DNA from: Alphaproteobacteria bacterium
GTDB lineage: Bacteria > Pseudomonadota > Alphaproteobacteria > Ferrovibrionales > Ferrovibrionaceae
Direction: 5' to 3'
Length of the DNA: 64,000 nt
Assembly (NCBI GenBank): GCA_017307375.1
Contig: JAFKFH010000009.1
Coordinates: forward strand, 248,001-312,000
Both the position numbers and the translations under genes were made by a program. The notes under the pieces are model-generated. The model saw only the letters and a list, made by a program, of their open reading frames with translations, made no database searches and was not told the origin of the DNA. Position 1 is the stretch's first letter, and each line of letters opens with the position of its first letter. Positions 39,810 to 58,040 of this stretch are shown here, piece after piece.

Positions 39810-39917
39810 CGAAAGCCACCCCGCGACAAATCGACGGCTGTACCAACTGGCGCTTGCATCGCCGTCGCCCACCACTAAGCTGAAGACTGGTTCAGTGTGG
39901 CAGGGAGCCCAGACATA

Positions 39918-41963
39918 GTGGAGCAAGGGCCGGCGCGATATTTCGATTCGCTCGCCGTACGCCAGGCATGGCGTGCCTTGCTCGTCGCCTTGTTCATCGG
40001 CCTGCTGCTCGGGGTCGTGGAACTCGGCATTGCGCTGAAGGCCGAGCAGAACAAGCTGCGGGCGCTGAAGGAACAGATCCTCAACCTGGCCGGCGGCGGC
40101 GTCGCCAATGCCGTCTGGTCGCTGAATGCCGGGCTTGCCAACGACATCCTGCGCAGCCTGCTGGCCATCGAAAGCGTGCAGGAAGCCTGGATCAAGGACG
40201 ACCGCGGCGGCTATCTCGCCGCCGCCTCGCGCACGCCAGAGCCGCTGACCCCGGCCCAGACCTGGGTCGCCAACGTGTTCTTCAAGGATATCGACGCCCA
40301 GGTGCGCGAGGTCTACCCGCCGGAGACCGCGTCGGTCCAGCACGCAAGACGCCAGATCGGCTCGTTCGGCGTGCGGATGAACACGAACCTGCTGGCGCGC
40401 GACTTCTTCAACCTGGCGACGACCCTGCTGCTCGGGGGGGTGGCGCGCGCCGTACTGATCGCGCTGGCGCTGGCGGTCGTCTTCCATGGCTTCCTGACGA
40501 GACCGTTGTCGAGCCTGGGCCGCGCGATCCGGGCCGTCGATCTCGACGCGCCGGAAAAGACGACCGTGGTCGAACCGGCCAATCACCGCCGCGACGAACT
40601 AGGCCAGCTGGCGCAGACCGTAACCAACTTGCTCGAGCGGCTGGCGAAAAGCCAGGTCGAGCTGCGCCGGCTCGCCACCCGCGACATCCTGACCGGCCTG
40701 CCCAACCGCGCGCTGATCATGGAGACGCTCGAACATTCGATCAGCCTGGCCCAGCGCAACGCCACCGGCGTCGCGATCCTGTTTCTCGATCTCGACCGCT
40801 TCAAGCATGTCAACGATTCGCTCGGCCACGGCATGGGCGACGAGCTCTTGATGAAGGTCGGCGAGCGGCTGCAGTCGGTGATCCGCAAGGGCGACACCGT
40901 CGGGCGCCTTGGCGGCGACGAATTCCTGATCATCGCCGAGCAGGTCGGCGGGCCGAACGAGGTGGTGCCGGTCGCGACCCGGATCCTGCAGGCCCTGGCG
41001 CCGCCCTTTGCCATCGGCGAGCATCGGCTGCATGTCGGCGCCTCGATCGGCATCTCGCTCTATCCGACCGATGCGACCGACCCGTTGACCCTGTTCCGTC
41101 AGTCCGACACGGCCATGTATGCCGCCAAGGCGGTCGGCGCCGGGCGCTGGATGTTCTTCTCCAAGGAGATGACGGAACGCGTCGCCGTCCGGCTCAAGGT
41201 CGAGGGCTCCTTGCGCAAGGCGCTCGACCGCGGCGAATTCGAACTGTTCCTGCAGCCCAAGGTCGAAGCCCGGTCGATGCGCATCGTCGGCGCCGAGGCG
41301 CTGATCCGCTGGCGCACCGCCGAGGGCTACGTCTCGCCGATGGAATTCATCCCGGTGGCCGAGGAAACCGGCGTCATCGTGCCGATCGGCTACTGGGTGC
41401 TGGAAGAAGCCTGCCGCATCCAGACCCGCTGGCAGGAACGCGGGCTGCGCCTCAATCTGTCGGTGAACGTCTCGGCCCGCCAGCTCGAGGACGACAAGTT
41501 CCCCGAACAGGTCGACCGCATCCTGCGCAGCCATGGCGTCTCGGCCGGCGACATCGAGATCGAAATCACCGAAACCGTCCTGATGAAGCGGGTCGAACGC
41601 GACATCGGCATCCTCAACATGCTGCGCGCGCTCGGCCTGTCGATCTCGGTCGACGATTTCGGTACCGGCTATTCCAGCCTCGCCTATCTGCGCAGCCTGC
41701 CGATCTCGGCCCTGAAGATCGACCGCAGCTTCGTCAACGATATCGAACGTGACCCGGTGATCGCGGCGACGATCATCAGCCTGGCGCAGCGCATGTCGCT
41801 GAATTCGGTGGCCGAGGGCGTCGAAACCCAGTTGCAGGTCGACTGGCTGCGCAGCCACGGCTGCGACTATCTGCAGGGCTATGCGATTGCCAAGCCGCTG
41901 CCGCTGGCCGAATTCGAGCGGCTGCTGGCTGCGCAGACGGCGCTGATCCGCTCCGGCTCCTGA
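39918..41963 (+). CDS. GGDEF-EAL c-di-GMP signalling protein
   Basis: This 681-residue inner-membrane protein has two membrane segments (about 18-38 and 170-195) flanking a periplasmic sensor region, then a HAMP-like linker, GGDEF and EAL domains. GGDEF looks intact (LGGDEF, I-site RKGD five residues before). EAL also looks intact (GAEALIRW, NVSARQ, EITETVLM, DDFGTGYSS, VAEGVET). Both synthesis and breakdown of c-di-GMP are possible. I prefer the GTG at 39918, 10 nt after GGGAG; another in-frame GTG lies at 39897. It directly precedes the phage tail module. Confidence 0.92.
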   Translation: MEQGPARYFDSLAVRQAWRALLVALFIGLLLGVVELGIALKAEQNKLRALKEQILNLAGGGVANAVWSLNAGLANDILRSLLAIESVQEAWIKDDRGGYLAAASRTPEPLTPAQTWVANVFFKDIDAQVREVYPPETASVQHARRQIGSFGVRMNTNLLARDFFNLATTLLLGGVARAVLIALALAVVFHGFLTRPLSSLGRAIRAVDLDAPEKTTVVEPANHRRDELGQLAQTVTNLLERLAKSQVELRRLATRDILTGLPNRALIMETLEHSISLAQRNATGVAILFLDLDRFKHVNDSLGHGMGDELLMKVGERLQSVIRKGDTVGRLGGDEFLIIAEQVGGPNEVVPVATRILQALAPPFAIGEHRLHVGASIGISLYPTDATDPLTLFRQSDTAMYAAKAVGAGRWMFFSKEMTERVAVRLKVEGSLRKALDRGEFELFLQPKVEARSMRIVGAEALIRWRTAEGYVSPMEFIPVAEETGVIVPIGYWVLEEACRIQTRWQERGLRLNLSVNVSARQLEDDKFPEQVDRILRSHGVSAGDIEIEITETVLMKRVERDIGILNMLRALGLSISVDDFGTGYSSLAYLRSLPISALKIDRSFVNDIERDPVIAATIISLAQRMSLNSVAEGVETQLQVDWLRSHGCDYLQGYAIAKPLPLAEFERLLAAQTALIRSGS

Positions 41964-42277: not shown

Positions 42278-42455
42278 TACCCGGTTGTTTCCCCTGGCCG
42301 CAGGATCGCTGCGGGCGGGCGGAATTGCCATGCCCTGAGCGTCGGACGCTCTCCGATCTTCATCCGGTGCGCGCCATCGCGACGGTGCGCAACGAGCCAG
42401 CTCCCAGGGGCTCGGCGGGCCTCCCCCCCTTTTCGTCACCATGAGGAAATCCAAA

Positions 42456-43694
42456 ATGGCCTATCAGAGCCAGTCGAACGGCTATGTCGCCTACAAACTG
42501 CAGTCCGGCCTGGGCAACCAGGCTTCCGGGTCGGGCGCCGCGATCCTGCCGATCGTCGGCGGAACGCCCGGCAAGGTCACGAAGGCGGTTTCCGCCTCGA
42601 ACCTGGTACGACGCGACGGCATGCGCGTCCGCGGCCGCCACGGCTCGCAGAAGACGTCGGGCGCCTATTCGAGCGAACTGATGGTCGGCGCGTTCGACGA
42701 GGTGATGGCGGCGGTCATCCGCGGCACCTGGAGCGCGCCCGACCTCGGCGTCACCAATGCCACCGGCGCCATGTCTTCGGCCACGCTGTCGGCCGGCGGC
42801 AACACCGTGACGTTCTCCGGCGGCTCGATCATCACCGCGGGCTATCGCGTCGGCGACGTGCTGCGCAACACCGCCGGCCTCGACGCCGCCGACCAGGGCC
42901 GGAACCTGCGCATTACCGGCATGACCGCCACCACGATCACCTTCGCGGAAACCCTGACCGCCGTGGCCGGCCCGGTCTCGACCTGGAGCTTCGTTCGCCC
43001 CGGCCGCGTGCTGATCAACCCGGCGCCGGGCGCGCTGGTCCGCCGCTACTTCACCATCGAGGAGAACGAGGTCGACATCGACGGCTCGGAACTGTTCACC
43101 GACGCCGTATTCGGCTCGATGAAGTTCTCGATGCAGCCGGACGGCCAGGTGCTGTTCGACCCGAGCTGGACCGGTACCGGCCAGTTCGAAAGCAAGAACG
43201 GCACCGGCGCCCCGCATTTCACCGGCCCGACCGAACCGACCGAGGCGCCGCTGTCGGTCGCCGACGCGACGGTGCGCCTGGGTTCGAGCGACCTGGTCGA
43301 CATGACCGCCTTCGAACTGACCGTCAATCTCGGCCTGAATGCGCCGGTCGTCGCGGCGTCGAAGTATTCGCCCGATGTGTTCGACGGCCAGATGTCGATC
43401 GGCGGCAGCCTGACCGCGCTGCGCTCCGACCTCGGTCGCGTCGCGCAATTCCTCGACGAGGACCAGCTGTCGCTGCACGTGCTCGCCGTCGGCAACGAGA
43501 ACAATCCGCAATCCTTCATCTCGATCTACGTGCCGAACTTCACCTTCGGCGGTGTCGACAAGTCGGCCCTGAGCCGTCAGGGCGGGGCGCGCACCCAGCA
43601 GCTCGCCATCCCCGAGGATCTCGTCGGCATCGACACCCGCGGCGGGGCCTATGACCCGACGATGATCAAGATCCAGGTCTCGAACGCGGCCTGA
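42456..43694 (+). CDS. Phage tail tube (major tail) protein
   Basis: This 412-residue structural protein is the first gene of the tail module. A repeat-like beta-rich body (LSAGGNTVTFSGGS, GYRVGDVLRNTAG, FEGTVNL-like strands) and its position before the chaperone and tape-measure genes identify it as the tube subunit of a non-contractile tail. The ATG at 42456 is preferred over 42441, because AGGAAA lies 8 nt before it. It is preceded only by a non-coding leader; no head-tail connector gene is present. Confidence 0.75.
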   Translation: MAYQSQSNGYVAYKLQSGLGNQASGSGAAILPIVGGTPGKVTKAVSASNLVRRDGMRVRGRHGSQKTSGAYSSELMVGAFDEVMAAVIRGTWSAPDLGVTNATGAMSSATLSAGGNTVTFSGGSIITAGYRVGDVLRNTAGLDAADQGRNLRITGMTATTITFAETLTAVAGPVSTWSFVRPGRVLINPAPGALVRRYFTIEENEVDIDGSELFTDAVFGSMKFSMQPDGQVLFDPSWTGTGQFESKNGTGAPHFTGPTEPTEAPLSVADATVRLGSSDLVDMTAFELTVNLGLNAPVVAASKYSPDVFDGQMSIGGSLTALRSDLGRVAQFLDEDQLSLHVLAVGNENNPQSFISIYVPNFTFGGVDKSALSRQGGARTQQLAIPEDLVGIDTRGGAYDPTMIKIQVSNAA

Positions 43695-43773: not shown

Positions 43774-44214
43774 ATGACCGTCGCCTTCGATATCGATGTC
43801 TTCGACACTGCCGATACCGCGGAACTGACCATGGTCCACCCCGTGACGGGCGAACCGACCACCTGGGTCTGGACGCTCGCCGGCCCCGGCCATCCCAAGA
43901 CCATCGAGCAGTCGAACCGGATCGCCCGGGAGCGGCTCGACCAGGAGCGCCAGAAGGAGCAGGCGCGCGTCAACGGCAAGAAATGGCATGAGCCGCGCCG
44001 CGAACCGGAGGAGGAGCGCCGCCGCAACTGCGCCTATTTCGCCGAGCGCGTGGTGGCCTGGACGCCGTGCCGCATCAACGGCGACGACTATCCGTTCACG
44101 ACCGAGAACTGCATCGCCATCCTCGCCGACCCGCGCAAGCCGCGCATCTTCAACCAGCTCGCCACCTACTTCGCCGGTGACGAGGCTTTTACCGCGCGCT
44201 CCGCGACCAGCTGA
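43774..44214 (+). CDS. Tail assembly chaperone, zero-frame (G-like) product
   Basis: This 146-residue acidic, charged protein occupies the place of lambda gpG, between the tube and tape-measure genes. It contains a helical charged segment (about 50-85, ERLDQERQKEQARVNGKKW) and ends at 44214. The ATG follows GAGGGAA. A second, longer product is probably made by slipping back one base at TTTT (44187-44190); see the entry at 44181-44570. Both are expected to chaperone the tape-measure protein and not to enter the mature tail. Confidence 0.8.
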   Translation: MTVAFDIDVFDTADTAELTMVHPVTGEPTTWVWTLAGPGHPKTIEQSNRIARERLDQERQKEQARVNGKKWHEPRREPEEERRRNCAYFAERVVAWTPCRINGDDYPFTTENCIAILADPRKPRIFNQLATYFAGDEAFTARSATS

Positions 44215-44570
44215 TCGCAGCGGCGGAGCATCGCTTCAGGCTGGCGCGGCGCGACAAGGACGGTCGCTCCGAACAGGAACATCTCGAAGGCCTGCTGGCG
44301 CGTGCCAGGACGGAGGCGCGCCGGCAGGAACTCGACAGGAGCCTGTCGGGCCCCTCCCTGCCGCCGGCGGGCCTGTATCTGTGGGGCTGGTTCCATGAAC
44401 TCAGCAATGCCCGCGGCAGCGGCGGTTTCGGCGCTGCCGCGATTTCCTACCCGGACATCCTCGCCTGGTCCCGACTGACAGGACGCCGCCCGGCGCCCTG
44501 GGAAGTCGACGTGATCAAGGCGCTGGACGTCGCCTATCTGAACACCGCGGCCGCCAATCGGGACGACTGA
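44181..44570 (+). CDS. T-like extension of the tail chaperone, reached by -1 frameshift
   Basis: This frame opens right after a stop at 44178-44180 and runs to 44570. It contains no ATG, GTG or TTG start until close to its end, so it cannot be translated independently in a normal way. Slippage from GCT TTT to TAC at 44190 joins it to the upstream chaperone as DEAF-YRALRDQLIAAAEHRF, giving a 265-residue fusion. The C-terminal part GLYLWGWFHEL, then SYPDILAWSRLTGRRPAPWE, matches a tail-chaperone family. This mirrors lambda G/GT. Confidence 0.82.
   Translation, partial: RGFYRALRDQLIAAAEHRFRLARRDKDGRSEQEHLEGLLARARTEARRQELDRSLSGPSLPPAGLYLWGWFHELSNARGSGGFGAAAISYPDILAWSRLTGRRPAPWEVDVIKALDVAYLNTAAANRDD
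44187..44190 (+). other. Probable -1 frameshift slip site (TTTT)
   Basis: The zero-frame codons GCT TTT ACC contain four consecutive T. Peptidyl-tRNA(Phe) on TTT (44188-44190) can re-pair one base back (44187-44189), after which TAC is read. It lies 24 nt before the zero-frame stop (44212-44214) and 7 nt after the last stop of the -1 frame, the narrow window where a shift must occur. No strong downstream hairpin was confirmed by eye. Confidence 0.7.
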
Positions 44571-44612: not shown

Positions 44613-47600
44613 ATGGCCGCAGCCCAGCAGGTCACCGAAATCATCGTCAAGGCAGACGGCGCGATCGCGGCGACGAATGCCTATGCCACGGCCGCGACCC
44701 GCGCCGAACAAGCGGTCGACAAGTTCAATGCGGCGCAGGATCGTCGGCAGCAAGCGGACAATGCGGTTGCACGATCTACCAGCCAGGCCACGGCACAGTT
44801 GAACCTCTACCTCCAGAGCCTCGACCCATTGCTCGTCGCTTCGCATCAGCTTGCCATCAACCAAGGGCTCCTCGGCGGTGCGCTTGCAGGCTCGCTCGCC
44901 ATGGTCGTCGAGGGTGCCAAACGTGTTGATGCCCTTGCCCAATCAAATGAAAATCTCGCGGCCCGTTTACGAGAATTGACGGACGGCCTTGCAGAGCTCG
45001 GCAAGTTCGATTTGGTGAACGTAACGCTTGAGAAATTTGCCGAACTCGCCATTGGCGGTGCCTTGAAGTCGCAAGAATTGACCACGGCATTTGCTGGTAT
45101 CGGCGTTGGATCCGGGGTGGCCCTGACCGGTCTCGGCCTGCTGCTGGGCGGTGTCGTTGCGACCACCGTCGCCATTGAGCGGGGTGCGGAAAACAACCGT
45201 AAATTCGATTTGGCACTACGTGCCTCTGGCGGTGCGGTGGGGCTGACCGTCGCCCAGCTGGAGGATCTCGCCGTGAAAACCGCAGGTTATGGCGGCGTTA
45301 CAATCCAAGCGGCACGCGACATCGAGGTCACCCTGGCGCGAACCGGGGAAATCGGCGGTGCGGTCTTTACCGGATTGACGGCAGCTACCGCCGACTACGC
45401 CGCCATCAGTGGGAAAAAGCTGAAGGCAGCAGCCGAGGATCTTGCCACCGCCTTCTCTTCTCCCGCCGAGGGGGCCCGGCGGCTGGACAAGGAACTAAAT
45501 TTCCTTTCGGACCCGCAGAAAAACGCAATCGCGGACATCGAAGCGGAGGGCGACAGGTTTGGCGCCCAGACACTTTTGCTTGATGCCCTGAAGGCGCATA
45601 CGAAGGATGCTGCGGAGCAAGGGCTGGGGCCACTAGCCCGCGCATTCAATATTCTTAGCAGTGCCACAGATCAAGCGACCAACGGGTTCGCTAAATTTCT
45701 GAGACAAGGTTTCGGCGCACCGCAGATCCGCACCTCCGTCGAAATCGAGGACGAGATCCTCAACTTGCCAAAGGTCCCCCCCAATCCCCGCGGTGGGATC
45801 GGTAATCGACTTCAGAGGCTCCAGACCGAACTTTACAACGCGAAAGCTGCAGAAACGCAGGCCCTGATCGAGGCGTGGGCAAAGACTTATAATGATCAGG
45901 TCAAGGCACGAGACGATACGACTGGAAACCCGAAAGAGAACATCGGGCAAACAAAAGGGGCGTCGCTAGTGGCGATGTCCCGACAGACGGCTACCTTCCC
46001 TTCTCCGCCCAAGATCGCCATGGATCACCTCCAGATTTACCGGCGATATCTGGAAGACACTACAGTTGCTCTCACCGACGCACAAAAAGCCATCCAACCT
46101 TACCAAGTTCAAATCAATAACCTGCGCGAGCTCATGGCTGGCGGGACCCTAAGCGCGAAGGAATATGCCGAAGCCCAGGACTTACTGCCGCAATTGGAGG
46201 TGCGGCGTTCTCTCGCAGCAGAAGGGGCAGAAAAAGCCCTCAGCCAGCTTGGAGACGCGACCCTTGCGCGTATTGGCTATATTCAGACCGAAGCTGACGC
46301 GACGCTGCAGGGGGAAGACGCACTAAAATCGCTGCGTCGTGAACGCGAATTGAATAACGACGCTATGAAGTACGAGGCTGACCTGCAGGCGCTCGTCGAA
46401 CGCGGCTATGACCTGCAAGGCAAATCCATTGCAGAACTAACTACGAAATACCGAAAAGCGCGCGAAGCACAGCTGGATGCGCCCGAGAAGGCGGCCGCCC
46501 GGTCCAAGGAGCGCGCCGAAGCCGACAAGGCGGCAGCCGATATTCGTAAGAAGGCCGACGATCTCAGCGGCGACATCGCCGAAGCGATTTATGATGCGGG
46601 CACCAAGGGGAGCAAAAGCTTCTGGGAGAAATTCCAGGAGTGGGGGCGCGCGACGGTCAAGCGCCTCTCGGTCGAGATGGTGCTGAAGCCGATCATCCAG
46701 CCCGTCATGATGTCGATCGTCGGTGCCGTGCCGCAGTTGTTCGGCCTTGCCGGCGGTGCCAACGCCGCCAGCGCAACTGGCGCAGGCAGTGGCGGTCTCA
46801 GCTCGATCATGTCGCCGATCACAGACATGATCGGCATGGCCAAGAATTTCATCGGCGACGCCTTTGGCGGGGCAACGAGCTGGATCAATAGCATCGGCCC
46901 GTCGCTCGGCTTCGCGTCGGCACCGTTGAATGCCTCCGAGTTGATGGCGCTCACCAGCACCGCGACCGGCCCCGGTGGTTTCCTGGTCGGTGGCGGTGCC
47001 CAGTCCATCGCGGCCACACCCGGCTCGCTTTTCGGCGGCACCTCCCTGTCCGGCTTCCTCGGCAACGCCGGTATCGGTTTTGCCGCGGGCAACCTGCTGA
47101 ACGGCCTGTTCGGCGGCAGCAGCACCGGCGGCATGATCGGATCGGGCATCGGGTCCCTGATTGGTTCGGGCCTCGCCCTTATCCCGGGGCTGCAGCTTCC
47201 GGGTATGCTGCTGTCGATCCTGGGCGGCGCCGGTGGCGGCCTGCTCGGCGGGCTGTTCGGCAAGGACGAGCAGACGCCCCGCGGTTATGCCGGCGGCGAG
47301 ATCGGCAACAACAATCGCTTCTCGGCGACGGATGTGCACCAGGCCGGCCTGGACGGTTACGACAATTCGCGCGATCGCCAGGAGATGGCCAAGTTCGCGG
47401 AAACCATGAACGCGACGATGGATCGCTATCGGCTGTCCTTCGCCGTCGACAAGGACTCCATCAATTCCAACGGTGCCTATAACGGGCTGCTGACGATCGG
47501 CACGATGTATGGCGGCGCCAAGGACGCCGCCGACCTGTTCATGCGCTGGTTCAAGAGCGATGCCGGGGCGGCCACGGGCCCGGGCCGGGTCAGCGAAGAC

Positions 47601-50600
47601 GATTGGATGCGTGCCTCCGGTTATACGCGTAGTTCCACCTACGACCGCGACAGCGGCTGGACCTACGACCTGCGCGACAAGGCCGGCAACCAGGTGACGC
47701 AGGATACCTGGAACAGCGAGTACGAGAAATGGCGCGACGCGCAGAAGCAGACCACCGGGCCGGGCGGCGCGCTGTTCAAGAGTGACGACGCCTATGTCCA
47801 GAAGGCACTGGACCGCATGGCGAGCGGCGACACCAAGATCAAGGATCAGGGCGAGGTCCAGAAATTCCTGGAGTTCGCCGGCAGCTTCAAGGATGCGGCC
47901 GATCGCGCCGCAGCCGGCGTCGACACGCTGAAGCGCCAGACCCTGGAATGGGACATCGCGGCACGCGATGCCGGCCGCGCGCTGGAAAAGACCGTCAAGG
48001 ACTACGTGAAGTCGGCCAACGATCTCTACGGCGAAAACTCGGCCGAATCCACGCAGGCCGCTCTCACCCAGCGCCAGAATATTTTCGCCACGATGAGACT
48101 GGATCCCAAGGGTCAGATCATCGCGCCAGGCACCGACGATCGCCTGAAGGGCGCCGACGCCGAAATCGCGCAGATGAAGGCACAATTCAGCGCTTACCAG
48201 AAGGCATTGGAGGCCACCGGGCTCTCGGTCGAGGAGGCCACGGCGTTCATCAACCGCGGCATCGAATCGACGACGGCGCACATTCGAGATGCGCATGCGG
48301 AGAATGACCGCCGGAGGGAGGCCGGTTTCGCGGAACGCGAGACCGCAGCACGAATCGCCATGAACCGGCCCGAAACCATGAATCTCGCCGTAGGAGGCAG
48401 CTCCGACTACAACGCCATCGACGGCTTGCTCAAGCCAAATGCCTATAGCGCGGCGCAAGCATCCCTGGCGGAGCGTCAACGGCAGGAGATCGTCGACGCC
48501 GAGAAAGCCGGCCTGTCAGATGCTCAAATCGCCCGGCTGAAATATATCCAGGGTCTCGAGCGGGAAGCGCAGATCGTACAGCAGACCGAGGATCAGTATC
48601 GTGTCCGGGACGGCCAGCGTGCCCGCGAGATGCAAGCGCAGTTCACCGTAAGGAACGGACCTGGGTTCGATCGCTACAACGCGCAGCGCGAACAGCAGAT
48701 CGCGCAACATCGCCAGGAGTTGTTCGACGCCGAGCAAAAGGGCTACACCGCCGCGCAGATCGCCGGCCTCAAGTACGTCCAAGGGCTCGAAGAGCAGGCG
48801 CTCACGCTGCAGCAGACCGAGGATATAGCCCGTATCCACGATGGCCAGCGCGCTCGGGAGGTTCAGGCCAAGCTTACCCTGCGCGCGCCGGGATACTCCC
48901 AGGATATGGCCGAGCAGGAAGAACAGATCGCCCGTCATCGCCAGGAACTGTTCGACGCCCAGCAGCAGGGCTACACCGACACGCAACTCGCGGGCCTACG
49001 GTATGTCCAGGGCCTCGAGGAGCAAGCCTTGGCCCTGCAGCAGGCTGAGCGGGCCCTGCAGAAGGAGGAGGCCTATATCACCCGCACGGCGCAGGCGATG
49101 GTCGGTTTGCTCGCCGGTTCGTCCGCCCAGCAGCAGGGGCAGTATCTGGTCGAGGATGTCCAGCGCCAGATCGCCCAGGCGCAGGAATTGCGCAACGCCA
49201 CGAGCGAGGCCGATCGGGCCCGCATCCTGGAGATCCAGCATCTGGAGGATGCCTCGATTGCGGTGCAGCGGGCGGCCGCGGCGCAGCAGCAGTACAACGA
49301 GGCGCTGAAGACCGCCAAGGGGCAACTCGCGGAGTTTCGCGGCTCGATCGACCAGTGGCTGGACCAGCAGAAGGTCAACCAGGTCGGCGGCCCGACCGCC
49401 ATGGCGTCGTACCTGGCGGCACAGCAGCAGTACAACGAGCAGCTCGAGAAGGTGCGCGCCGGCGATCCCGGGGCGATGGGGTCGATCACGGCCTATGCCG
49501 ATCGCCTGATCGCGGCGATGCAGGCGCTGGACCAGCCGAATGCCGTGGCCAATCTGGACGCCAGCCGACAGGCGTTCGAGGCGCTGGTGGATCGCGCCAG
49601 GGCCGGCGATGCGGATGCGATGTCCAAGGTACTGGCGCAGGCCGACCAGTATCGGCAGATCGGCCTGAATGCCTACGGCTCGACGGAGGCCTATCAGGCA
49701 TTGGTCGCGCAGATCCAGCAGACCATGCAGGACCTGCCCGACCAGATCAGCCCGGAGGAGATGGCGCGCAAGGCGATCGAGAAACTGAACGAGGATCTCG
49801 TCCCGCCGACCAAGGAGCAGCTCGACGTCGTCAGGAGCCTGGAGCGGATCTCGGCGGCGACCAAGGCCGCACTCGGCGTTTCCGGCTTCTCGCTCAGCGA
49901 TCAGCAGACGGCCATGCGCCTGCTGCAGCAGACGCAGATCGACGAGGTCAGGAACGGAAACAAGCTTGCCGAGAAGATCTTGCTCGAGCTGCAGAAGGCG
50001 CCGGCACCGGGCACGCCGACCACGCCCACGACGCCGACCGGCCCATCGCCGATGGATGCCTATTCCAGCCTGATGACGCTGGCGTCGACAGTCAGCAGCG
50101 AATCTCAGGACATGCGCAGGAACGGTGTCTCGGACAGCGAGATCGATCGGCAGATCGAAACGAAGTACGGGGCCTATCGGAACTCGCTGCTCGACATCAT
50201 GATCGCGCAACCCGATCTGATCCAGCAGTTCGGCCTTGCCTACTGGCAGAATCTGACCGGACCCGGCCCCGCCCACGCCCGATATCTGTTGAGCTCCCGG
50301 GGCATCATGCCGGCATTCGAATTCGGCGGCATGGCCTTCTCGGCCGGCGGCATGGGTTCGGCCTTCACGGCCATCCTGCATCATGGCGAGCGGGTGCTGA
50401 CCAACGAACAGAACACGATCTTCGAGCGCCTGTCGGACGCGATCCTGCAGCCGCCGCGCTGGACGATGCCGGCGGCATCGCTACGCCCGGCGAACGACCA
50501 CGTCGTCACCCGAGAGATGCTGGCGGAAATTCGCGAGCAGAAGCAGCAGGGCGAGAAGGTCGTAACCCTTCTCGCCGAGCTGGTGACGCGGCTTGCCGGC

Positions 50601-50717
50601 GGCAATGCCGACGAGGCCACGCTCGACGACGTGGTCGATGCCATCAACCGCCTGCAGCCGGCCCTGCGCGCCGGCCAGGCCCTGGCCGGGGCACGGCCGA
50701 TCTCGAAAGCGGGGTGA
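44613..50717 (+). CDS. Phage tail tape measure protein
   Basis: This 2034-residue protein has the size and position of a tape measure. The N-terminal 150 residues are helical. A strongly hydrophobic segment lies near residues 165-190 and Gly-rich membrane-like stretches near 700-900, as expected for a protein that is ejected and inserts in the host membrane. Three 76-77-residue repeats lie near residues 1285-1490. The C-terminus has a Gly-rich FGGMAFSAGGMG and LHHGERVLTNEQNT. If tail length scales at about 0.15 nm per residue, a tail near 300 nm would result. GAGGATC precedes the start. The 5' third is less GC-rich than its neighbours. Confidence 0.85.
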   Translation: MAAAQQVTEIIVKADGAIAATNAYATAATRAEQAVDKFNAAQDRRQQADNAVARSTSQATAQLNLYLQSLDPLLVASHQLAINQGLLGGALAGSLAMVVEGAKRVDALAQSNENLAARLRELTDGLAELGKFDLVNVTLEKFAELAIGGALKSQELTTAFAGIGVGSGVALTGLGLLLGGVVATTVAIERGAENNRKFDLALRASGGAVGLTVAQLEDLAVKTAGYGGVTIQAARDIEVTLARTGEIGGAVFTGLTAATADYAAISGKKLKAAAEDLATAFSSPAEGARRLDKELNFLSDPQKNAIADIEAEGDRFGAQTLLLDALKAHTKDAAEQGLGPLARAFNILSSATDQATNGFAKFLRQGFGAPQIRTSVEIEDEILNLPKVPPNPRGGIGNRLQRLQTELYNAKAAETQALIEAWAKTYNDQVKARDDTTGNPKENIGQTKGASLVAMSRQTATFPSPPKIAMDHLQIYRRYLEDTTVALTDAQKAIQPYQVQINNLRELMAGGTLSAKEYAEAQDLLPQLEVRRSLAAEGAEKALSQLGDATLARIGYIQTEADATLQGEDALKSLRRERELNNDAMKYEADLQALVERGYDLQGKSIAELTTKYRKAREAQLDAPEKAAARSKERAEADKAAADIRKKADDLSGDIAEAIYDAGTKGSKSFWEKFQEWGRATVKRLSVEMVLKPIIQPVMMSIVGAVPQLFGLAGGANAASATGAGSGGLSSIMSPITDMIGMAKNFIGDAFGGATSWINSIGPSLGFASAPLNASELMALTSTATGPGGFLVGGGAQSIAATPGSLFGGTSLSGFLGNAGIGFAAGNLLNGLFGGSSTGGMIGSGIGSLIGSGLALIPGLQLPGMLLSILGGAGGGLLGGLFGKDEQTPRGYAGGEIGNNNRFSATDVHQAGLDGYDNSRDRQEMAKFAETMNATMDRYRLSFAVDKDSINSNGAYNGLLTIGTMYGGAKDAADLFMRWFKSDAGAATGPGRVSEDDWMRASGYTRSSTYDRDSGWTYDLRDKAGNQVTQDTWNSEYEKWRDAQKQTTGPGGALFKSDDAYVQKALDRMASGDTKIKDQGEVQKFLEFAGSFKDAADRAAAGVDTLKRQTLEWDIAARDAGRALEKTVKDYVKSANDLYGENSAESTQAALTQRQNIFATMRLDPKGQIIAPGTDDRLKGADAEIAQMKAQFSAYQKALEATGLSVEEATAFINRGIESTTAHIRDAHAENDRRREAGFAERETAARIAMNRPETMNLAVGGSSDYNAIDGLLKPNAYSAAQASLAERQRQEIVDAEKAGLSDAQIARLKYIQGLEREAQIVQQTEDQYRVRDGQRAREMQAQFTVRNGPGFDRYNAQREQQIAQHRQELFDAEQKGYTAAQIAGLKYVQGLEEQALTLQQTEDIARIHDGQRAREVQAKLTLRAPGYSQDMAEQEEQIARHRQELFDAQQQGYTDTQLAGLRYVQGLEEQALALQQAERALQKEEAYITRTAQAMVGLLAGSSAQQQGQYLVEDVQRQIAQAQELRNATSEADRARILEIQHLEDASIAVQRAAAAQQQYNEALKTAKGQLAEFRGSIDQWLDQQKVNQVGGPTAMASYLAAQQQYNEQLEKVRAGDPGAMGSITAYADRLIAAMQALDQPNAVANLDASRQAFEALVDRARAGDADAMSKVLAQADQYRQIGLNAYGSTEAYQALVAQIQQTMQDLPDQISPEEMARKAIEKLNEDLVPPTKEQLDVVRSLERISAATKAALGVSGFSLSDQQTAMRLLQQTQIDEVRNGNKLAEKILLELQKAPAPGTPTTPTTPTGPSPMDAYSSLMTLASTVSSESQDMRRNGVSDSEIDRQIETKYGAYRNSLLDIMIAQPDLIQQFGLAYWQNLTGPGPAHARYLLSSRGIMPAFEFGGMAFSAGGMGSAFTAILHHGERVLTNEQNTIFERLSDAILQPPRWTMPAASLRPANDHVVTREMLAEIREQKQQGEKVVTLLAELVTRLAGGNADEATLDDVVDAINRLQPALRAGQALAGARPISKAG
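48465..49075 (+). repeat. Three-copy ~230-bp internal repeat of the tape measure gene
   Basis: Anchors of the repeat (KYIQGLE at 48540, KYVQGLE at 48771, RYVQGLE at 48999) are 231 and 228 bp apart. Each unit encodes a 76-77-residue helical block with consensus HRQELFDAE..GYT..QIA, then LQQTED and DGQRARE.QA. Repeats of this kind would set or vary tail length. Confidence 0.85.
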
Positions 50718-50721
50718 GGCA

Positions 50722-52485
50722 ATGCCCTGGTTGCTGAAGGCCGAACCCTATGACGACGGGTCGGCGGGTATCGTCACGCTGTTTTTCAGCGACGCCGGGT
50801 TCATCAGCGAACCCGGCGACAGCCCGCCGAACGTCTATTGGCAGCGGCGGATCGACGGGCCGCTAAGTGTCACGCGCTCGATCTATGCCGGCGCCGCCGC
50901 CGGCGGCCAGGCCGAGATCGTCTTCGGCGATTGCGTGCTGGCCAATGACGATGGCGCGCTCGACGGCCTGGCCGCCTATGACTGGGGCGGGCGGCGCATC
51001 GAGATCAGTTATGCCGCCGCCGAGCGGCCGGTGCTGGCGGATTTCGCGGTGGTGCTGAACGGCACGGCCGAGCAGGTCACGGTCGGCGAGCGCGACTTCA
51101 CCATCAAGCTGCGTGACATCCGCGTGCTGTTCGAGGTGCCCTGCCAGCCGGCGAAGTTCGCCGGCACCGGCGGAGCGGAAGGGGCGGCCGGGTACAACGG
51201 GCGGCGCAAGCCGCGCGTGCTCGGCCTGGCCCGGGTGTTCGAACCGGTGCTGATCAACGCGGCCTATCAGGTCTATGCCTACGGGTCCGGCCCCGGCGGC
51301 GGCGTGCTGACGGCCCGCGATCGCGGCCTCGCCTTCACGGCCGCGGGGCCGGATTTTCCGGACTACGCGTCGCTGATCGCCGCGCCCGGTGTCGGCTATG
51401 GCTACTTCACCTGCGATGCCCTGTCGCTGATCCGCTTCATCGCCACGCCGGTCGGCCCGGTCACGATCGACGCGCTGGGGCCGGTACGCGGCCCGAACCT
51501 CGTCGCGTCGTCCTTCACCGCCGGCATCGCCCAGACCGCACCGACGGTTGCAGGCCGCTGGTATGTGCTGCGCGCCCAGGTCACGCTCGGCGCCGGGACG
51601 CTCCTGCCCCGTGCCGGTGCGGCGCCCGGCCCGCTGCTGTCGGCCAGCGGCCGGGTGGTGATGCCGTTCCGGGCGAGTTCGGCCAGCACCGCGATCGACT
51701 TCGTCGGCTCCGGTTTCAGCGGCTCGATCACCAATGCCTCGGTGGTCGAGTGGCTGGGGCGGGCCGCCGACCTCGTCGACTACGTGGTCGACACCGACAC
51801 GACGCTCGCTTCGTCGGACTTCGCGCCCGGGACGATCGCGGCGCTGAACGCACTATGTCCCCAGGTGCTCGGCCACTGGTACGACGGGTCGGGCGACCTG
51901 CAGGCCAACACCCTGCTCGACCAGATCGTCAACAGCGTCGGCGCCTATTACGGTTTCGACGAGAACCGCCGGATCGTGCTGGGCCGTTTCGACGGTCCGG
52001 CGGCGCTGGCCGAACACCGGATCGACGAGCGCGATATCGAGGAGATCGAGCCCCTCGATGTCGAGCGTCGCCTGAAGTCGCAGATCATCGGCTATCGCCG
52101 CTGCTGGCGACCGCATGGCGATCAGGACCTGGCCGGCGCCGTCCCGGCCGCCGATCGCGAGGCGCTGCGCGTCGACTATCTGAAGGTCACCGCGGCGGAC
52201 CCGAGCGTCGCCGTCGCCGCCTTGCTGTCACGCGAGGAACGCTACGACACGCTGCTCGACGATGCCGCCGACGCCGCGGCCGAGGCCGCAAGGCGCCTCG
52301 CCTTGCACAGCCCGCCGCATCGCGCCTTCGCCATCACCATCAAGTACCGGCCTTCGGTCGATGTCGGCGAGACGGTCGCGGTCACCCATTCCCGCTACGG
52401 CCTCTCGGGCGGGGGCAATTTCCTAATCATGAAAACCGAGCGCGACGCCCGGTCCGATCGCATCCGCCTGGAGGTGTGGAAATGA
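50722..52485 (+). CDS. Tail tip/hub protein
   Basis: This 587-residue protein follows the tape measure gene, where tail-tip hub proteins are encoded. The N-terminal half is beta-rich (PWLLKAEPYDDGSAGIVTLF, EIVFGDCVLANDDG) and the C-terminal half is more helical. No NlpC/P60 peptidase or lysozyme motif is visible. The ATG follows GAGG, 4 nt after the tape-measure stop. The function is inferred from position. Its stop overlaps the next start (ATGA). Confidence 0.72.
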   Translation: MPWLLKAEPYDDGSAGIVTLFFSDAGFISEPGDSPPNVYWQRRIDGPLSVTRSIYAGAAAGGQAEIVFGDCVLANDDGALDGLAAYDWGGRRIEISYAAAERPVLADFAVVLNGTAEQVTVGERDFTIKLRDIRVLFEVPCQPAKFAGTGGAEGAAGYNGRRKPRVLGLARVFEPVLINAAYQVYAYGSGPGGGVLTARDRGLAFTAAGPDFPDYASLIAAPGVGYGYFTCDALSLIRFIATPVGPVTIDALGPVRGPNLVASSFTAGIAQTAPTVAGRWYVLRAQVTLGAGTLLPRAGAAPGPLLSASGRVVMPFRASSASTAIDFVGSGFSGSITNASVVEWLGRAADLVDYVVDTDTTLASSDFAPGTIAALNALCPQVLGHWYDGSGDLQANTLLDQIVNSVGAYYGFDENRRIVLGRFDGPAALAEHRIDERDIEEIEPLDVERRLKSQIIGYRRCWRPHGDQDLAGAVPAADREALRVDYLKVTAADPSVAVAALLSREERYDTLLDDAADAAAEAARRLALHSPPHRAFAITIKYRPSVDVGETVAVTHSRYGLSGGGNFLIMKTERDARSDRIRLEVWK

Positions 52486-53360
52486 GCACGATCGCCTTCC
52501 TCTATCGCAAGCCGACCGATACCGGCAGCTACAGCGGCGGCGGCTGGGCCGGCAGCCTGCCGCTTTCCAACCTGCAGACGCAGGACGTGCAGGCCGTGGC
52601 CCGGTCGACCAGCACCGATCCGGGCGCGACGCAGTGGCGGATCGACTGCGGCTCCAGCCCGCCGCAGCCGTTCTCGATGTTCGCGCTGCTCAACCACAAC
52701 ATCAGCGCGGCCGGCCGCGTGCGCTACGTCATCACCGACGATGCGGACGACGCCCCCGCCAACCGGCTCTACGACAGCGGCGACCGCATGGTGTGGACGC
52801 CTACCGTGGTCTGGGGCTCGCTGCCCTGGGGGGCCTTTCCCTGGGATGGCATCGATACCCATGACTATCCGGGCGGCACGATTTCGTTCCACGAGGCCGA
52901 CGATGTCTATTTCGGCCGCTACGTCTTCGTCTACATCACCGACGAGGACAACCCGGCCGGCTATGTCCAGGTCGGCCGATTCCTCGCCGGCCAGGCCTGG
53001 CGACCGTTCTATTCGCATACCGAGGCCAGCTTGCGCACGGTCGATCCGTCCGAAAGTCGGCGCACGCTCGGCGGGCGCAAGATCGTGCTGGCGCGGCCGA
53101 AATACCGGCAGATGGATGTCGGCTTCAACTGGATGACCGAGGCCGACGCCCTCGGCGTCGCCTTCGAGATCGACCGCCAGATCGCCAAGGCCGGCGACAT
53201 GCTGGTGGTCTACGACGCCCAGGACCAGCCGGCGATCCTCTTCCGCCGCGCCTTCTACGCCTCGCTGGTCGACACCAGCCCGATCTCGGTCGTCGCCGGC
53301 ACCTATGGCACCGGCGGCCCGCTCTACCAGGCGCGCCTGCAGCTCGAGGAACTGACCTGA
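52482..53360 (+). CDS. Minor tail protein
   Basis: This 292-residue beta-rich protein (SGGGWAGSLPLSNLQTQDVQ, GGTISFHEADDVYFGRYVF) is translated in overlap with the hub gene on one side and the fibre gene on the other. It contains RRTLGGRKIVLARPKYRQMD, which resembles distal-tail/baseplate proteins of siphophages. The exact role cannot be told from sequence; its place suggests it links hub and fibres. Confidence 0.68.
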   Translation: MSTIAFLYRKPTDTGSYSGGGWAGSLPLSNLQTQDVQAVARSTSTDPGATQWRIDCGSSPPQPFSMFALLNHNISAAGRVRYVITDDADDAPANRLYDSGDRMVWTPTVVWGSLPWGAFPWDGIDTHDYPGGTISFHEADDVYFGRYVFVYITDEDNPAGYVQVGRFLAGQAWRPFYSHTEASLRTVDPSESRRTLGGRKIVLARPKYRQMDVGFNWMTEADALGVAFEIDRQIAKAGDMLVVYDAQDQPAILFRRAFYASLVDTSPISVVAGTYGTGGPLYQARLQLEELT

Positions 53361-53995
53361 TGACGACCTACACCTGGCCCCAGACGGTCAACGGCGTTGC
53401 GTTCTCGGCCGCCGATTTCAATCCCTACGGCTATGTGACGAGCCTTCCCAATCTGCTCGGGAACTTCACCGCCTATGCCACGTCGATCCAGGCGCTGATT
53501 GCATCCGACAGAACACAGGCCGCAGCCTCCGCAACAGCGGCGGCAATCTCGGCAGCCGCCGCGGCAGGTAGCGCGACGGCGGCAACCGCCAGAGCGGGCG
53601 AGGCCGCAACCTCGGCAAGCAACGCCGGGGCGGCGGCCGCGGCTGCGGCAGCAAGTGCCTCGGCAGCAGCCACCGCGGCAGAGTCGGCAGCGGGCGGCGG
53701 CATCAAGATTACTGCCGCAGATACGACGCCCAAGTTACTTGATGCAGCCGTGACGGTTTCGGGCGCGATGGTCAAAAGCGTCACCGGACCGGGTGGTAAC
53801 GAAAAGCTCAATCTGACGGTAGACCTTTCGGCCTATGCCACCAGGGCCTCGCCGGTGCTGACCGGCACACCGACTGCGCCAACGGCGTCGGCCGGCGCCA
53901 ACACCAATCAAATCGCCAGCACCGCTTTCGTCGAGGCGCGGGCCATCGCCGCACCCACGACCGCCGAAGTGCTCTGGACCCGTGCATTCGTCTGA
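53360..53995 (+). CDS. Short tail fibre-like protein, paralogue of the fibre at 55072
   Basis: This 211-residue protein starts with MTTYTWPQTVNGVAFSAADF, a domain shared almost residue for residue with the larger fibre gene at 55072. About 60 residues of Ala/Ser/Thr-rich heptad-like sequence (65-115) follow, which should form a trimeric stalk, then GGGIKITAADTTPKLLDAA and a short C-terminal domain ending TNQIASTAFVEARA. That last motif is common in phage fibre tips. The start overlaps the upstream stop (TGATG). Confidence 0.75.
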   Translation: MTTYTWPQTVNGVAFSAADFNPYGYVTSLPNLLGNFTAYATSIQALIASDRTQAAASATAAAISAAAAAGSATAATARAGEAATSASNAGAAAAAAAASASAAATAAESAAGGGIKITAADTTPKLLDAAVTVSGAMVKSVTGPGGNEKLNLTVDLSAYATRASPVLTGTPTAPTASAGANTNQIASTAFVEARAIAAPTTAEVLWTRAFV

Positions 53996-54005
53996 GGAGA
54001 CTCCA

Positions 54006-54326
54006 ATGCCCGCTCTTGCTTTTCCGACCGGCGCCGCGACCGGTGCGCCGATTGCCATCGGTACCAGCGACACGACACTGCATACGACGCGTGCCGGCAA
54101 GAAGTCGGAGGTCTCGATCCTTGTTTTCAACAATGATGCCGGCGCCGACTACAATGTGACGCTGAAAATCGGCGGCACGGCAATCGGCGCAACAAAGATC
54201 GAGAAGCTTGCAGGTCCCTACCTGGTACTGCCGCCGATCGTGCTCGACGCCGGGCTTGCGATCACCGCTACCACGACGATTGCGACGAAGCTCTATGCGC
54301 TGGTTCAAGTCGCGGAGTACGACTGA
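54006..54326 (+). CDS. Small tail-cassette protein of unknown function
   Basis: This 106-residue beta-rich protein (GKKSEVSILVFNNDAGADYN, then VTLKIGGTAIGATKIEKL) lies between the short fibre and the glycine-rich protein. It could be a fibre chaperone or a decoration protein; no family is recognised. GAGGAG precedes the ATG, and its stop overlaps the next start. Confidence 0.65.
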   Translation: MPALAFPTGAATGAPIAIGTSDTTLHTTRAGKKSEVSILVFNNDAGADYNVTLKIGGTAIGATKIEKLAGPYLVLPPIVLDAGLAITATTTIATKLYALVQVAEYD

Positions 54327-54994
54327 TGCCAAACAACATCGGTATCAGGGCGACCAGACGACTGTCGGGCCGCATCAATGGCAGTAACAGCGGCCTCACG
54401 GCCACATTGATCTACAGTTTCGTAGAAATTCTGTCGTCAGACAGTTTTCCCGTCGTTATCCCGGCAAATGCGATTTGCTGGCGGGTGAAGGCCTTCGGCG
54501 GCGGCGGTGGCGGCGGCGGCAATGGGCAGCCCAGTGTCGGCCTTTATCAAGGCGGTGACGGTGGCTCGGGCGGTATGGCAGATACTGGCCTCGTAGTAGG
54601 CGATGGCAGCGCCAAGACTATTTCAGGGACAATCGGGGCGGGAGGTGCGGGCGCGGCTGGCTCCTGGGACGGCTACTCGACTAGTGGCGGCACCACATCG
54701 GTCAGTGTCGGCGGATTCTCGCTGGCCGCCTACGGCGGCGGTGGCGGGGCCCAAGCCCCGATAGAGAACGGCGTGCCTGGCGGGCTCGGCGGCGGCGCGG
54801 CGGGCGGCGCAGTCAATATCGCGGGCGGCGCTGGGATTGCCGGCGGCTTGTCCGCCAAGACGGCTCAGGGCGGCGTTGGCGGGCTGGGATATCCCGGCCG
54901 AGGCATTCCATCGCCCAGCCACGCAACTGGGTCGACCATTGGCGCACACGGCCGAGCGGGTGGGGTCCTGGCCGAATGGTGGACGGCCCCGTAG
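54326..54994 (+). CDS. Glycine-rich tail adhesin-like protein
   Basis: This 222-residue protein has a conventional N-terminus (1-50) followed by glycine-rich motifs (AFGGGGGGGGNGQ, GSGGMADTGL, YGGGGGAQAP, GGLGGGAAGGAVNIAGGAG) separated by variable loops. Such alternating motifs resemble the polyglycine-II sandwich of T-even-like gp38 adhesins, whose loops read the host receptor. This is a comparison by pattern, not a confirmed homology. It is coupled to the previous gene and is followed by the larger fibre gene. Confidence 0.65.
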   Translation: MPNNIGIRATRRLSGRINGSNSGLTATLIYSFVEILSSDSFPVVIPANAICWRVKAFGGGGGGGGNGQPSVGLYQGGDGGSGGMADTGLVVGDGSAKTISGTIGAGGAGAAGSWDGYSTSGGTTSVSVGGFSLAAYGGGGGAQAPIENGVPGGLGGGAAGGAVNIAGGAGIAGGLSAKTAQGGVGGLGYPGRGIPSPSHATGSTIGAHGRAGGVLAEWWTAP

Positions 54995-55071
54995 CGCGGC
55001 GGCCGATCAGTAGCGAAGTGACAGGTTCGCCCCCGGACACCGCCCTCATTCAACCTCAAGGAATCCCTGCG

Positions 55072-56892
55072 ATGACGACCTATACTTGGCCGTTGACGAT
55101 CAACGGCGTGACGTTCACGGCTGCCGATTTCGAACCCTATGGCTATGTCAACGCCGTCCCGAATCTGATGGGAAATTTTGCCGCCTATGCCGGCGCGATC
55201 AACACCTCGATCACCACCGACAAGGCACAAGCCGTCGCTGCCGCCGGCACGGCGACAACGGCAGCGGGCAATGCCGCCTCGGGCGCCGCGACCGCATCGG
55301 CGAAGGCAGGCGAGGCATCGGCGGCAGCAGCCGGCGCTTCGAGCAGTGCCGGCACCGCGACGACCAAGGCCGCCGAGGCGGCGAATTCGGCGTCGGCCGC
55401 GGCGGCCAGCGCCGGCACCGCCGCGACGAAGGCGGGCGAGGCGACGAGCGCGGCCGCGAGCGCCTCGGCCGGCGCCGCCACGGCGACCGCCAAGGCCGGC
55501 GAAGCCGCCACGTCGGCCGGGAACGCGGCCGGCAGCGCCACGACCGCGACGACCAAGGCGGGAGAGGCATCGGCGTCGGCTGCGGCTGCGGCCGGTTCGT
55601 CCATGGCGGCCGCGAACTCGGCGACGGCGGCGGCGGCCAGCGCGGCACAGGCGGCTACCTATGCCGGCGGCGGCATCAAGGTCAGCGCCACCGACACGAC
55701 CCATGGCCTGCTCGGCGGCAAGCTCACCGCGCTCGGCCCGCTGTCCTGGTCGGTCGCCAATGCCGGCGGCGACGAACGCTATCGGATCGCCATGGACTGG
55801 GCGAACCTGCCGGCCGCGAGCTTCACCGGGCAGGTCCTGTTGCCGGTCGGGTCGGTCGGTGCGCCCGGACTGGCTTTCGCCGCGGCGCCGAAAGCCGGCC
55901 TTTTCATCAGCAATACGACCACGCATGCGATCAGGATGGTGGCGGGCACTGCCGGCACGACCAGCGCCGGCGGCAACGCGTCCATAGCGGGCGGGTCCGG
56001 GGGCGCCACCGCAGGCAATGGCGGCAATGGATTGCTGACGGGTGGCGCGGCGACGGAAGGCAATGGCGGCGGTGCCTTCGTCCTCGGTGGGAGTGGGGCC
56101 AGCGCGACGGGGGCAGCGCGCGACGGCGGCGCGGTGACGATTACCGGCGGTGCCCCGGCGGGCACGGGCGCCGGCGGCGACGTGACGATCTCGGCCGGCA
56201 GTGGCGGGACCGTCGGTTCCGCGGCCTTTGCCCTGCTGGAGGGCGGGGCCGGGCCGAGCGGCGGAGGCCAGGCCGGCGGGGCAACCGTCCGTGCCGGTCT
56301 GCCCGTCGATGGCGACGGCGGATCGTGCAGCCTGCGGGCAACCGCCGGCGTCGGCACCAACCGGCACGGCGGGAGCAGCTATATCTATGGCGGCAACGCC
56401 ACGGGGACCGGGACCGGCGGATCGATCACGCTGACCGCCGGTTCGTCGCCGTCGGGCACGGCCGGCGACATCTCCCTGATCACATCGGGCGGCGGCACGG
56501 CCTGGCTGAACGGCTCGAAACTGCGGACCGTCGCCAATACGAAGGAAGCCATCACCATCGCCGTGTCGGACGAAACCTCGGCGATCACCGCCGGCACCGG
56601 CAAAGTGACGTTCCGCATGCCCTACCGCTTCACGCTGACGGCGGTCCGGGCCTCGCTGACCACAGCGTCCACCAGCGGCACGCCGTCCATCGACGTCAAC
56701 CGCAACGGTAGCTCGATTTTCTCGACCACGCTGACTATCGACGCCAGCGAACGGACTTCGGTGACGGCGGCGACGGCGGCCGTGCTGGCCACCACCATCC
56801 TGAACGACGACGACGAAATCACCATCGACATCGACGCGGCCGGCACCGGTGCCAAGGGCCTTAAGGTGACGCTGATCGGGAGCCAGGTCTGA
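55072..56892 (+). CDS. Long tail fibre protein
   Basis: This 606-residue protein shares its N-terminal 50 residues with the fibre at 53360 (MTTYTWPLTINGVTFTAADF). An Ala-rich stalk of roughly 20-residue units (KAGEA recurring through about 70-200) follows, then GGGIKVSATDTTHGLLGGK, a Gly-rich middle with short polyglycine strands (about 300-480), and a C-terminal beta-domain (VTFRMPYRFTLTAVRASLTT, DIDAAGTGAKGLKVTLIG) found on many phage fibre tips. It is the main candidate for host recognition. AAGGAA precedes the ATG. Confidence 0.78.
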   Translation: MTTYTWPLTINGVTFTAADFEPYGYVNAVPNLMGNFAAYAGAINTSITTDKAQAVAAAGTATTAAGNAASGAATASAKAGEASAAAAGASSSAGTATTKAAEAANSASAAAASAGTAATKAGEATSAAASASAGAATATAKAGEAATSAGNAAGSATTATTKAGEASASAAAAAGSSMAAANSATAAAASAAQAATYAGGGIKVSATDTTHGLLGGKLTALGPLSWSVANAGGDERYRIAMDWANLPAASFTGQVLLPVGSVGAPGLAFAAAPKAGLFISNTTTHAIRMVAGTAGTTSAGGNASIAGGSGGATAGNGGNGLLTGGAATEGNGGGAFVLGGSGASATGAARDGGAVTITGGAPAGTGAGGDVTISAGSGGTVGSAAFALLEGGAGPSGGGQAGGATVRAGLPVDGDGGSCSLRATAGVGTNRHGGSSYIYGGNATGTGTGGSITLTAGSSPSGTAGDISLITSGGGTAWLNGSKLRTVANTKEAITIAVSDETSAITAGTGKVTFRMPYRFTLTAVRASLTTASTSGTPSIDVNRNGSSIFSTTLTIDASERTSVTAATAAVLATTILNDDDEITIDIDAAGTGAKGLKVTLIGSQV

Positions 56893-57542
56893 TGTTCGTC
56901 ATCAACCCATTCGTCTTCGCGGGAGGTGTTGCGACCGTCATCGGCCAAGGCAATACCCCCTACGCCTCGAGCTACGCGGCGACCAACGGCTATGTCTCGA
57001 TCGACCAGGGCGGCGAGGGTGGCAGCTATCGGATCCTCGCCACGGCATCGGCCCCGAACAATCAGTGGAGTACCCTGGCATTCGTTGGCGGACCCAATCT
57101 GTGGGGCGCGGGCGACGACGTCTATCAGGAAATGAAACTCGTGGCCGCCCCGAACGGCATCAGCCTCGTCGCGGGAGTCTGCAACGATGGCGTGATGACC
57201 TCAAGGCATGTCGGCTTCAATACCTCCGGACTGGGCTTCTATGCCGGGACCAACTATGCGCCGGTCGGCGTTTACTACAATGACGGCCTGGCGGTGAATG
57301 TCGCCGACAATAGCGGCACAGCGACGCCTGGCAGCCGGGTGACCGTGCGGGTCCGGAATGCTGCCGGTCAATACCGGGTCGACGGCTACATCGACGGCCT
57401 GCTCATTGCCCACGGTTCGATTACCGCACTGCCAGGCAACTCCTACATGGGCCTGTCGCTTTTCGGATCCGGCACCATGATCGAGTGCACCCGGGCATCG
57501 CAGGTGCGACATCCGATCGCCGGCTCGGTCTACCTGGGATAA
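56892..57542 (+). CDS. Terminal tail-cassette protein, possible receptor-binding protein
   Basis: This 216-residue beta-rich protein (GVATVIGQGNTPYASSYAAT, LSLFGSGTMIECT) has no recognised family. Translational overlap with the fibre gene (TGATG) and its place at the end of the module suggest a receptor-binding or fibre-associated role. It contains a concanavalin-like run of strands (about 60-190). No holin, endolysin or other lysis gene follows; the next gene is rpmE. Confidence 0.62.
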   Translation: MFVINPFVFAGGVATVIGQGNTPYASSYAATNGYVSIDQGGEGGSYRILATASAPNNQWSTLAFVGGPNLWGAGDDVYQEMKLVAAPNGISLVAGVCNDGVMTSRHVGFNTSGLGFYAGTNYAPVGVYYNDGLAVNVADNSGTATPGSRVTVRVRNAAGQYRVDGYIDGLLIAHGSITALPGNSYMGLSLFGSGTMIECTRASQVRHPIAGSVYLG

Positions 57543-57900: not shown

Positions 57901-57961
57901 TTTCCGCGACCGGCTCCTTCAGGATTCGGTCAGCGATTTCAGGGACTTGAGCCTTAGAGTA

Positions 57962-57991: not shown

Positions 57992-58004
57992 ATGCGTTTC
58001 TGCC

Positions 58005-58033: not shown

Positions 58034-58040
58034 GAGCATT

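Follow-up and report, generated by a model that had tools for sequence, protein, structure and literature searches.

A tail assembly chaperone gene probably read in two frames by -1 slippage at a reduced slip site in a headless tail cluster of an alphaproteobacterium

The window, by which we mean the whole stretch of 64,000 nucleotides of alphaproteobacterial DNA analyzed here, carries on its forward strand a cluster of phage tail genes in which two overlapping reading frames, A and B, lie between the tail tube gene and the tape measure gene. The tube gene upstream of A (42441..43694) matches PF18906 with 62.7 bits and phrog_290 at 4.2e-29, and the tape measure gene downstream of B (44613..50717) encodes 2034 aa and matches PF06791 with 81.3 bits (query: its first 1129 aa) and phrog_24 at 1e-20. 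A (43774..44214) is the zero frame, a gpG-like tail assembly chaperone of 146 aa that ends in TGA and is assigned from phrog_313, its relatives and an AlphaFold model. B (44181..44570) is a gpT-like extension in the -1 frame that has no usable start: the frame follows a stop at 44178-44180, is open from 44181 to 44567 (129 codons) and closes with a stop at 44568-44570, and its single ATG, GTG or TTG codon is a GTG 107 codons past the slip site. The two frames share 34 nt (44181..44214) that are coding in both, and the zero frame across this overlap reads GAC GAG GCT TTT ACC GCG CGC TCC GCG ACC AGC TGA.

The earlier note on this DNA had proposed a programmed -1 frameshift in a tail assembly chaperone, and our re-reading of the sequence returned the same coordinates for A, for the -1 frame and for its stops. 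As that note had described, the -1 frame has no start until near its end, the overlap contains TTTT (44187-44190) and the pair stands directly before the tape measure gene; slippage at TTTT would join 139 residues of A to 126 of B, which gives the 265-residue protein it had reported, with a predicted fusion junction of DEAF-YRAL. The open -1 frame alone is weak evidence in this GC-rich sequence, because the longest -1 run reaches 164 to 565 codons in five of the eight other ORFs of the region and 129 codons in a sixth; we therefore dropped it as the main evidence. In a set of nine ORFs that includes A, in-frame T_TTT is rare (4 of 5328 codons), and any in-frame Y_YYY occurs at 41 of the same 5328. 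Judged from the sequences compared below, the case is decided by homology and conservation and not by the open -1 frame.

B matches the Pfam family PF23812 (Phage_TAC_18) with 63.5 bits, above the curated cut-off of 27, and has homologues in 84 phage records, 77 of which match at least 80% of its length; in the 60 rows listed, the match begins at B residue 1 to 9. The match of A to phrog_313 ('Tail assembly chaperone') is weak (E 0.0028), and the A proteins of four relatives gave 3.8e-29, 9e-20, 2.9e-5 and 0.021 against the same profile. PHROG 8233, also named tail assembly chaperone, spans both halves, with A of the Limnohabitans phage DC31 locus (L064) at profile positions 22-131 and its B at 171-259. 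The AlphaFold model of A has a pLDDT of 84.6 (63-78 in the other four models). Its best fold match in BFVD is to an uncharacterised protein (1.9e-7), and named tape-measure chaperones follow from 7.8e-5, among them those of Caulobacter phage Sansa (7.8e-5 for the 310-residue form and 1.7e-4 for the 161-residue form); a fold search of the PDB with the same model gave nothing below E 1.5. The modelled fold of A resembles that of named tape-measure chaperones.

The -1 layout with a slip motif is present in 57 of 61 places drawn from genomes of the class, viral contigs and phage records, a set that includes the window itself and some near-copies (L027 and the copy on contig C38, L032/L033, L040/L041, L003/L035 and L065/L066). 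Among 385 genomes of the class, 16 of 18 PF23812 places have A in the zero frame, B in the -1 frame and a slip motif between them. One of the other two, L020, has no clear A partner that we could recognize, and L023 was rejected as a false match below the cut-off, lying in a frame of 861 aa that we take to encode a DNA repair protein. All 21 viral-contig loci show the layout, as do 20 of the 22 phage records fetched from the 84 with B homologues; the remaining two are L064, which reads +1, and Pseudomonas phage PaMx28 (L053), which reads +1 or -2. A further candidate, L006, was dropped when reading showed that it is not a chaperone relative. This shared layout, the conserved position of the slip and B's chaperone domain together support the programmed -1 frameshift proposed earlier.

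The slip motifs of the 52 representatives used in the tree, with classes assigned by manual reading of the loci, are T_TTT_TTC/G (16), A_AAT_TTT/C (14), A_AAA_AAC (10), G_GGA_AAG/C (5), the window's pattern X_XzT_TTT (6) and G_CTT_TTT (1). In seven class relatives (L010-L012, L016, L019, L021 and L022) the stop of A lies directly 3' of the A_AAA_AAC heptamer. The earlier note had held that relatives in which the two parts are independent genes with good starts would speak against a shift; we looked for such cases, and 48 of the 52 representatives have no ATG, GTG or TTG within 15 codons after the slip, L029 being the sole one with a start and a Shine-Dalgarno-like stretch within 30 codons. In PaMx28 (L053:1201-1300) the slip run is one T shorter than in its relative PaMx74, which places B in the +1 or -2 frame; the missing T may be a sequencing error or mark a further switch of direction, and phage 9g has been reported to use a -2 shift (the excerpt of PMC4276943 available to us). 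Scans of the genome contigs for further sites by pattern and alignment gave 30 and 44 pattern matches, none of them confirmed, and a DNA-level search among phages gave no result.

Closer to the window, a second copy in the same genome, on contig C38, is 96% identical in A and 74% in B and has the same slip site and the same overlap, and the same A/B overlap is found on a 10.9-kb metagenome contig. The alignment of orthologues that the earlier note had called for shows TTTTA invariant in 16 of 16 distinct near relatives, while the codon preceding T_TTT varies; the 34-nt overlap length is shared by the C38 copy and several Bradyrhizobium-type relatives, and others have a longer one. Among these 16 sequences the synonymous difference in the last 11 codons of A is 6.5% (958 comparisons), versus 40.1% elsewhere (7826 comparisons), and none of 120 other windows is as low. 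Double coding alone would freeze the overlap, so the freeze shows both frames in use without telling by what mechanism the ribosome shifts. Most members of the sister lineage carry the canonical heptamer A_AAU_UUU, with A_AGU_UUU in L031-L033, and G_GAU_UUU is found in Roseobacter phage CRP-6 and L044; the common denominator of the window-type and sister-lineage sites is U_UUU followed by A. The viral contig L004 (852-1812) looks mosaic, being window-like upstream and through most of A and C38-like from the end of A through B. The genome has a third chaperone copy (C30:190000-222000; L134, L142), with G_GGA_AAC, within a prophage that also has terminase, portal, protease and capsid genes.

The slip site of the window, G_GCT_TTT (44184..44190), is followed by ACC. 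It is not the heptamer of lambda, G_GGA_AAG, and does not fit the canonical X_XXY_YYZ heptamer, as moving from GCT to GGC produces a mismatch in the middle position, and perfect re-pairing one base back is available only on U_UUU. Most ribosomes would terminate at 44212-44214 and yield A, and a minority would slip back one base as tRNA-Phe, in the P-site or the A-site, re-pairs from UUU 44188-44190 to UUU 44187-44189, after which reading would resume with UAC and give the A-B fusion. The tRNA-Phe probably slips largely alone, because tRNA-Ala on GCU would face GGC with its middle mismatch. We infer the rate of the shift, its two products and their roles from lambda (the consulted part of PMC5009743): by analogy with G/GT, A would coat the tape measure protein, and the fusion would recruit the tube subunit through its B part.

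We saw by eye no Shine-Dalgarno-like element 10-14 nt upstream of the slip, and neither the fold of the window nor the alignment of its relatives gave a convincing 3' stimulatory structure. A possible hairpin (44196..44229) has two competing pairings, one at 44196-44218 from the alignment and one at 44198-44229 in the window's own fold. The latter is no better than shuffled sequences (z -0.82 for 48 nt and z -0.23 for 100 nt). In the family alignment 96.4% of cells are paired, a value reached in 4 of 500 shuffles, and one of seven pairs has changed on both sides, in one clade only. Downstream folds at other loci range from z -2.76 (L055) and z -1.96 (L046) to positive values in L002, L048 and L029, so that the 3' structure is weak and differs among relatives.

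We put the probability that A and B form a single gene, decoded in two ways through -1 slippage at TTTT, at about 0.92. Counted against this reading are the non-canonical heptamer and the variable direction within the family, which has a +1 branch in addition to PaMx28, as well as the lack, by eye, of a Shine-Dalgarno-like element, the weak 3' structure and the two class-wide places L020 and L023. The rivals to this mechanism jointly keep only a slight share of the probability. Very little of it goes to separate production of B through re-initiation at CTG or ATC (44211-44216), a non-standard start overlapping the stop of A; the CTG does overlap the TGA, and depositors annotate a shortened B as a separate gene in several phages (for example L003, L048 and L053). 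This codon is, however, replaced by TTA in L030, and the B residues that precede it, an F, a Y or F and then an L with constant spacing, can still be made out in L029, L048 and L059, in which A stops 2 to 3 codons past the slip and thus exerts no constraint on them; an independent start for B was rejected on these two grounds. It is far less probable still that the two frames result from gene breakage or a sequencing error, with no programmed shift. A tail cluster without head genes could be decaying, but the identical overlap in the C38 copy and on the metagenome contig, together with the -1 layout kept throughout the family, led us to reject this explanation as refuted by independent copies. 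The frameshift reading therefore stands, as that of an ordinary tail-chaperone frameshift whose slip signal is reduced and whose tail cluster lacks a head.

This setting differs from that of the other copies in the genome. The tail-side ORFs beyond the tape measure gene (50593..57542, forward strand) include members of phrog_8917 and phrog_8610, fibre-like and glycine-rich proteins and two without a clear family; sequence searches of the PDB with two tail-tip proteins gave no match. Host genes on the same strand bound the cluster: upstream a HAMP-GGDEF-EAL gene (39897..41963; Pfam EAL 226.9 bits, GGDEF 158.5 bits) and downstream a small conserved protein, which we take to be ribosomal L31-like, with an Hsp20-like gene (together 57661..58670, with a match to phrog_432 at 5.7e-37). 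The small protein is present in all 18 genomes of the family and has the Hsp20-like gene beside it at 15 of the 17 loci in relatives; the roughly 1.5 kb viewed on each side of those 17 loci held no tail ORF, and the other 17 family genomes gave no copy of A or the tube gene. Terminase (phrog_9, phrog_15), portal (phrog_12) and integrase (PF00589) profiles have no match on the window's contig (C13), which makes this a tail cluster without a head, and do match elsewhere in the genome; both the C38 and the C30 chaperone copies adjoin terminase, portal, protease and capsid genes. C38 has one more terminase match (47077-49197), far from the chaperone copy there, which suggests another prophage. In a tblastn search with 13 head proteins from three phages, a panel that misses distant capsid proteins, the best match in the window had E 0.021. 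No lysis or phage regulator gene was recognized beside the cluster among the ORFs scanned, and a rough hydrophobicity scan gave no convincing holin.

With no head genes in its cluster and host genes on both sides of it, this copy may work in a headless tail or be what is left of a prophage. That this copy belongs to an idle prophage remnant from which no particle is made has a little less than an even chance: the contig without terminase, portal or integrase matches, the head proteins of three phages with no match in the window below E 0.02, and the absence of A and the tube gene from the other family genomes all point that way. Against it, the tube gene, A/B, the 2034-codon tape measure gene and the tail-tip ORFs are all open across 15 kb, so that any loss would be recent. 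Doubtful, and yet worth considering, is use as an F-type tailocin, a headless killing tail whose assembly the frameshift would set. The complete-looking tail set flanked by host genes, with head genes absent, favours it, as does the fact that rhizoviticin, an alphaproteobacterial tailocin of this type, likewise lacks head genes in the available text of PMC10811719, whereas the scan for lysis and regulator genes and the absence of the cluster from related genomes speak against it.

The series of slip sites also includes a branch with the opposite direction. In Limnohabitans phage DC31 (L064:783-1575) B lies in the +1 frame and matches TAC_18 with 66.6 bits. From 61 freshwater viral contigs containing an A like that of DC31 we excluded three (L096, L125 and L126) in which A runs off the end, and all 59 testable places in this freshwater branch (58 viral contigs and DC31) read +1. 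Curvibacter phage P26059A, whose A is 50% identical, has the +1 layout as well. The loci of the branch are L064:783-1575, L069-L129 and L130:1501-2380. The +1 place reads AAY TTT CGN in 57 of the 59 and AAC TTT TGC in two, and the overlap, often 11-17 nt, bounds it tightly. Its Phe codon is TTT in 45 of 45 distinct A genes, while at the seven remaining conserved Phe columns TTC accounts for 18 to 76%. The motif is already known: UUU_CGN is the influenza PA-X site (excerpt of PMC3498833), UUU_Ynn is +1-prone in bacteria (consulted part of PMC5009743) and TTT-CGC has been proposed as the +1 site of the HF1 halovirus tail chaperone (consulted part of PMC7230728). Our literature search for Limnohabitans phage combined with frameshift found nothing. 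In a tree built from 68 rows and 132 columns of B the direction changes once, with the +1 rows forming one group (support 94), although this is provisional given the 132 columns, the many unresolved forks and the long branches.

A tentative and rather unlikely wider reading is that one chaperone family keeps recoding over the long term while its signal is repeatedly rebuilt at the same place, the series running through A_AAA_AAC, G_GGA_AAG/C, T_UUU_UUC/G, A_AAU_UUU/C and U_UUU-only forms, with one switch to +1 at AAY_UUU_CGN; the window site would then be a working, largely single-tRNA slip serving a headless tail. The U_UUU-only reduced forms are G_GCU_UUU in the window, A_AGU_UUU and G_GAU_UUU. 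Because frameshifting in tail chaperones is well established, the case adds little by itself. The family, with two-tRNA sites, U_UUU-only sites and a forward-shifting branch at one homologous position, is a natural series that could show whether a single tRNA-Phe slip suffices and what turns -1 into +1. Protein-level evidence at the window locus would also separate an active headless tail from a remnant. For annotation, several deposited phages omit B or present it wrongly as a short gene of its own.

Xu et al. (2004) reportedly described the -1 frameshift of phage lambda G/GT and its counterparts in tailed phages. The earlier note had called the locus exactly as in lambda G/GT, and the comparison stands for the layout and falls short in two respects. 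As in lambda-type -1 frameshifting, which is widely conserved in long-tailed phages (these lambda traits as given in the part of PMC5009743 available), an overlapping ORF pair lies between tail tube and tape measure, its second ORF is startless in the -1 frame and the slip position is conserved; the window differs in using G_GCU_UUU instead of the lambda heptamer and in having no adjoining head genes, for which reason 'as in lambda' is not to be read as 'in a phage'. The other PF23812 chaperones, such as those of Bradyrhizobium phage ppBdUSDA122-1, Roseobacter phage CRP-6 and Bradleyvirinae phages, share the B domain, the -1 layout and the slip position with the window. Their sites are A_AAU_UUU, T_UUU_UUC, G_GGA_AAG/C and A_AAA_AAC, and G_GAU_UUU of CRP-6 has the window's pattern. 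The GTTTTT site of Vandenendeviridae and Andersonviridae, in the available text of PMC12846349, is likewise a T-run near the end of a chaperone gene with a -1 shift inferred from alignment, although its run is longer and the phage families are others. The window's GG-C-TTTT would fit the -1 motif 'twoonefour' of PRFect as two-one-four, judging from the motif's name; that motif was derived by inspecting SEA-PHAGES genomes (both points from the consulted part of PMC10885494), whereas the window's lies in a homologous series with canonical sites. The UUU_CGN of influenza PA-X (excerpt of PMC3498833) and of the HF1-group haloviruses (excerpt of PMC7230728) corresponds to the freshwater +1 branch and not to the window's site, and in the haloviruses it is also found in the tail chaperone, the branch described here belonging instead to phages of freshwater bacteria. 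As for the headless setting, the window cluster shares with the F-type tailocin rhizoviticin the lack of head genes (consulted part of PMC10811719).
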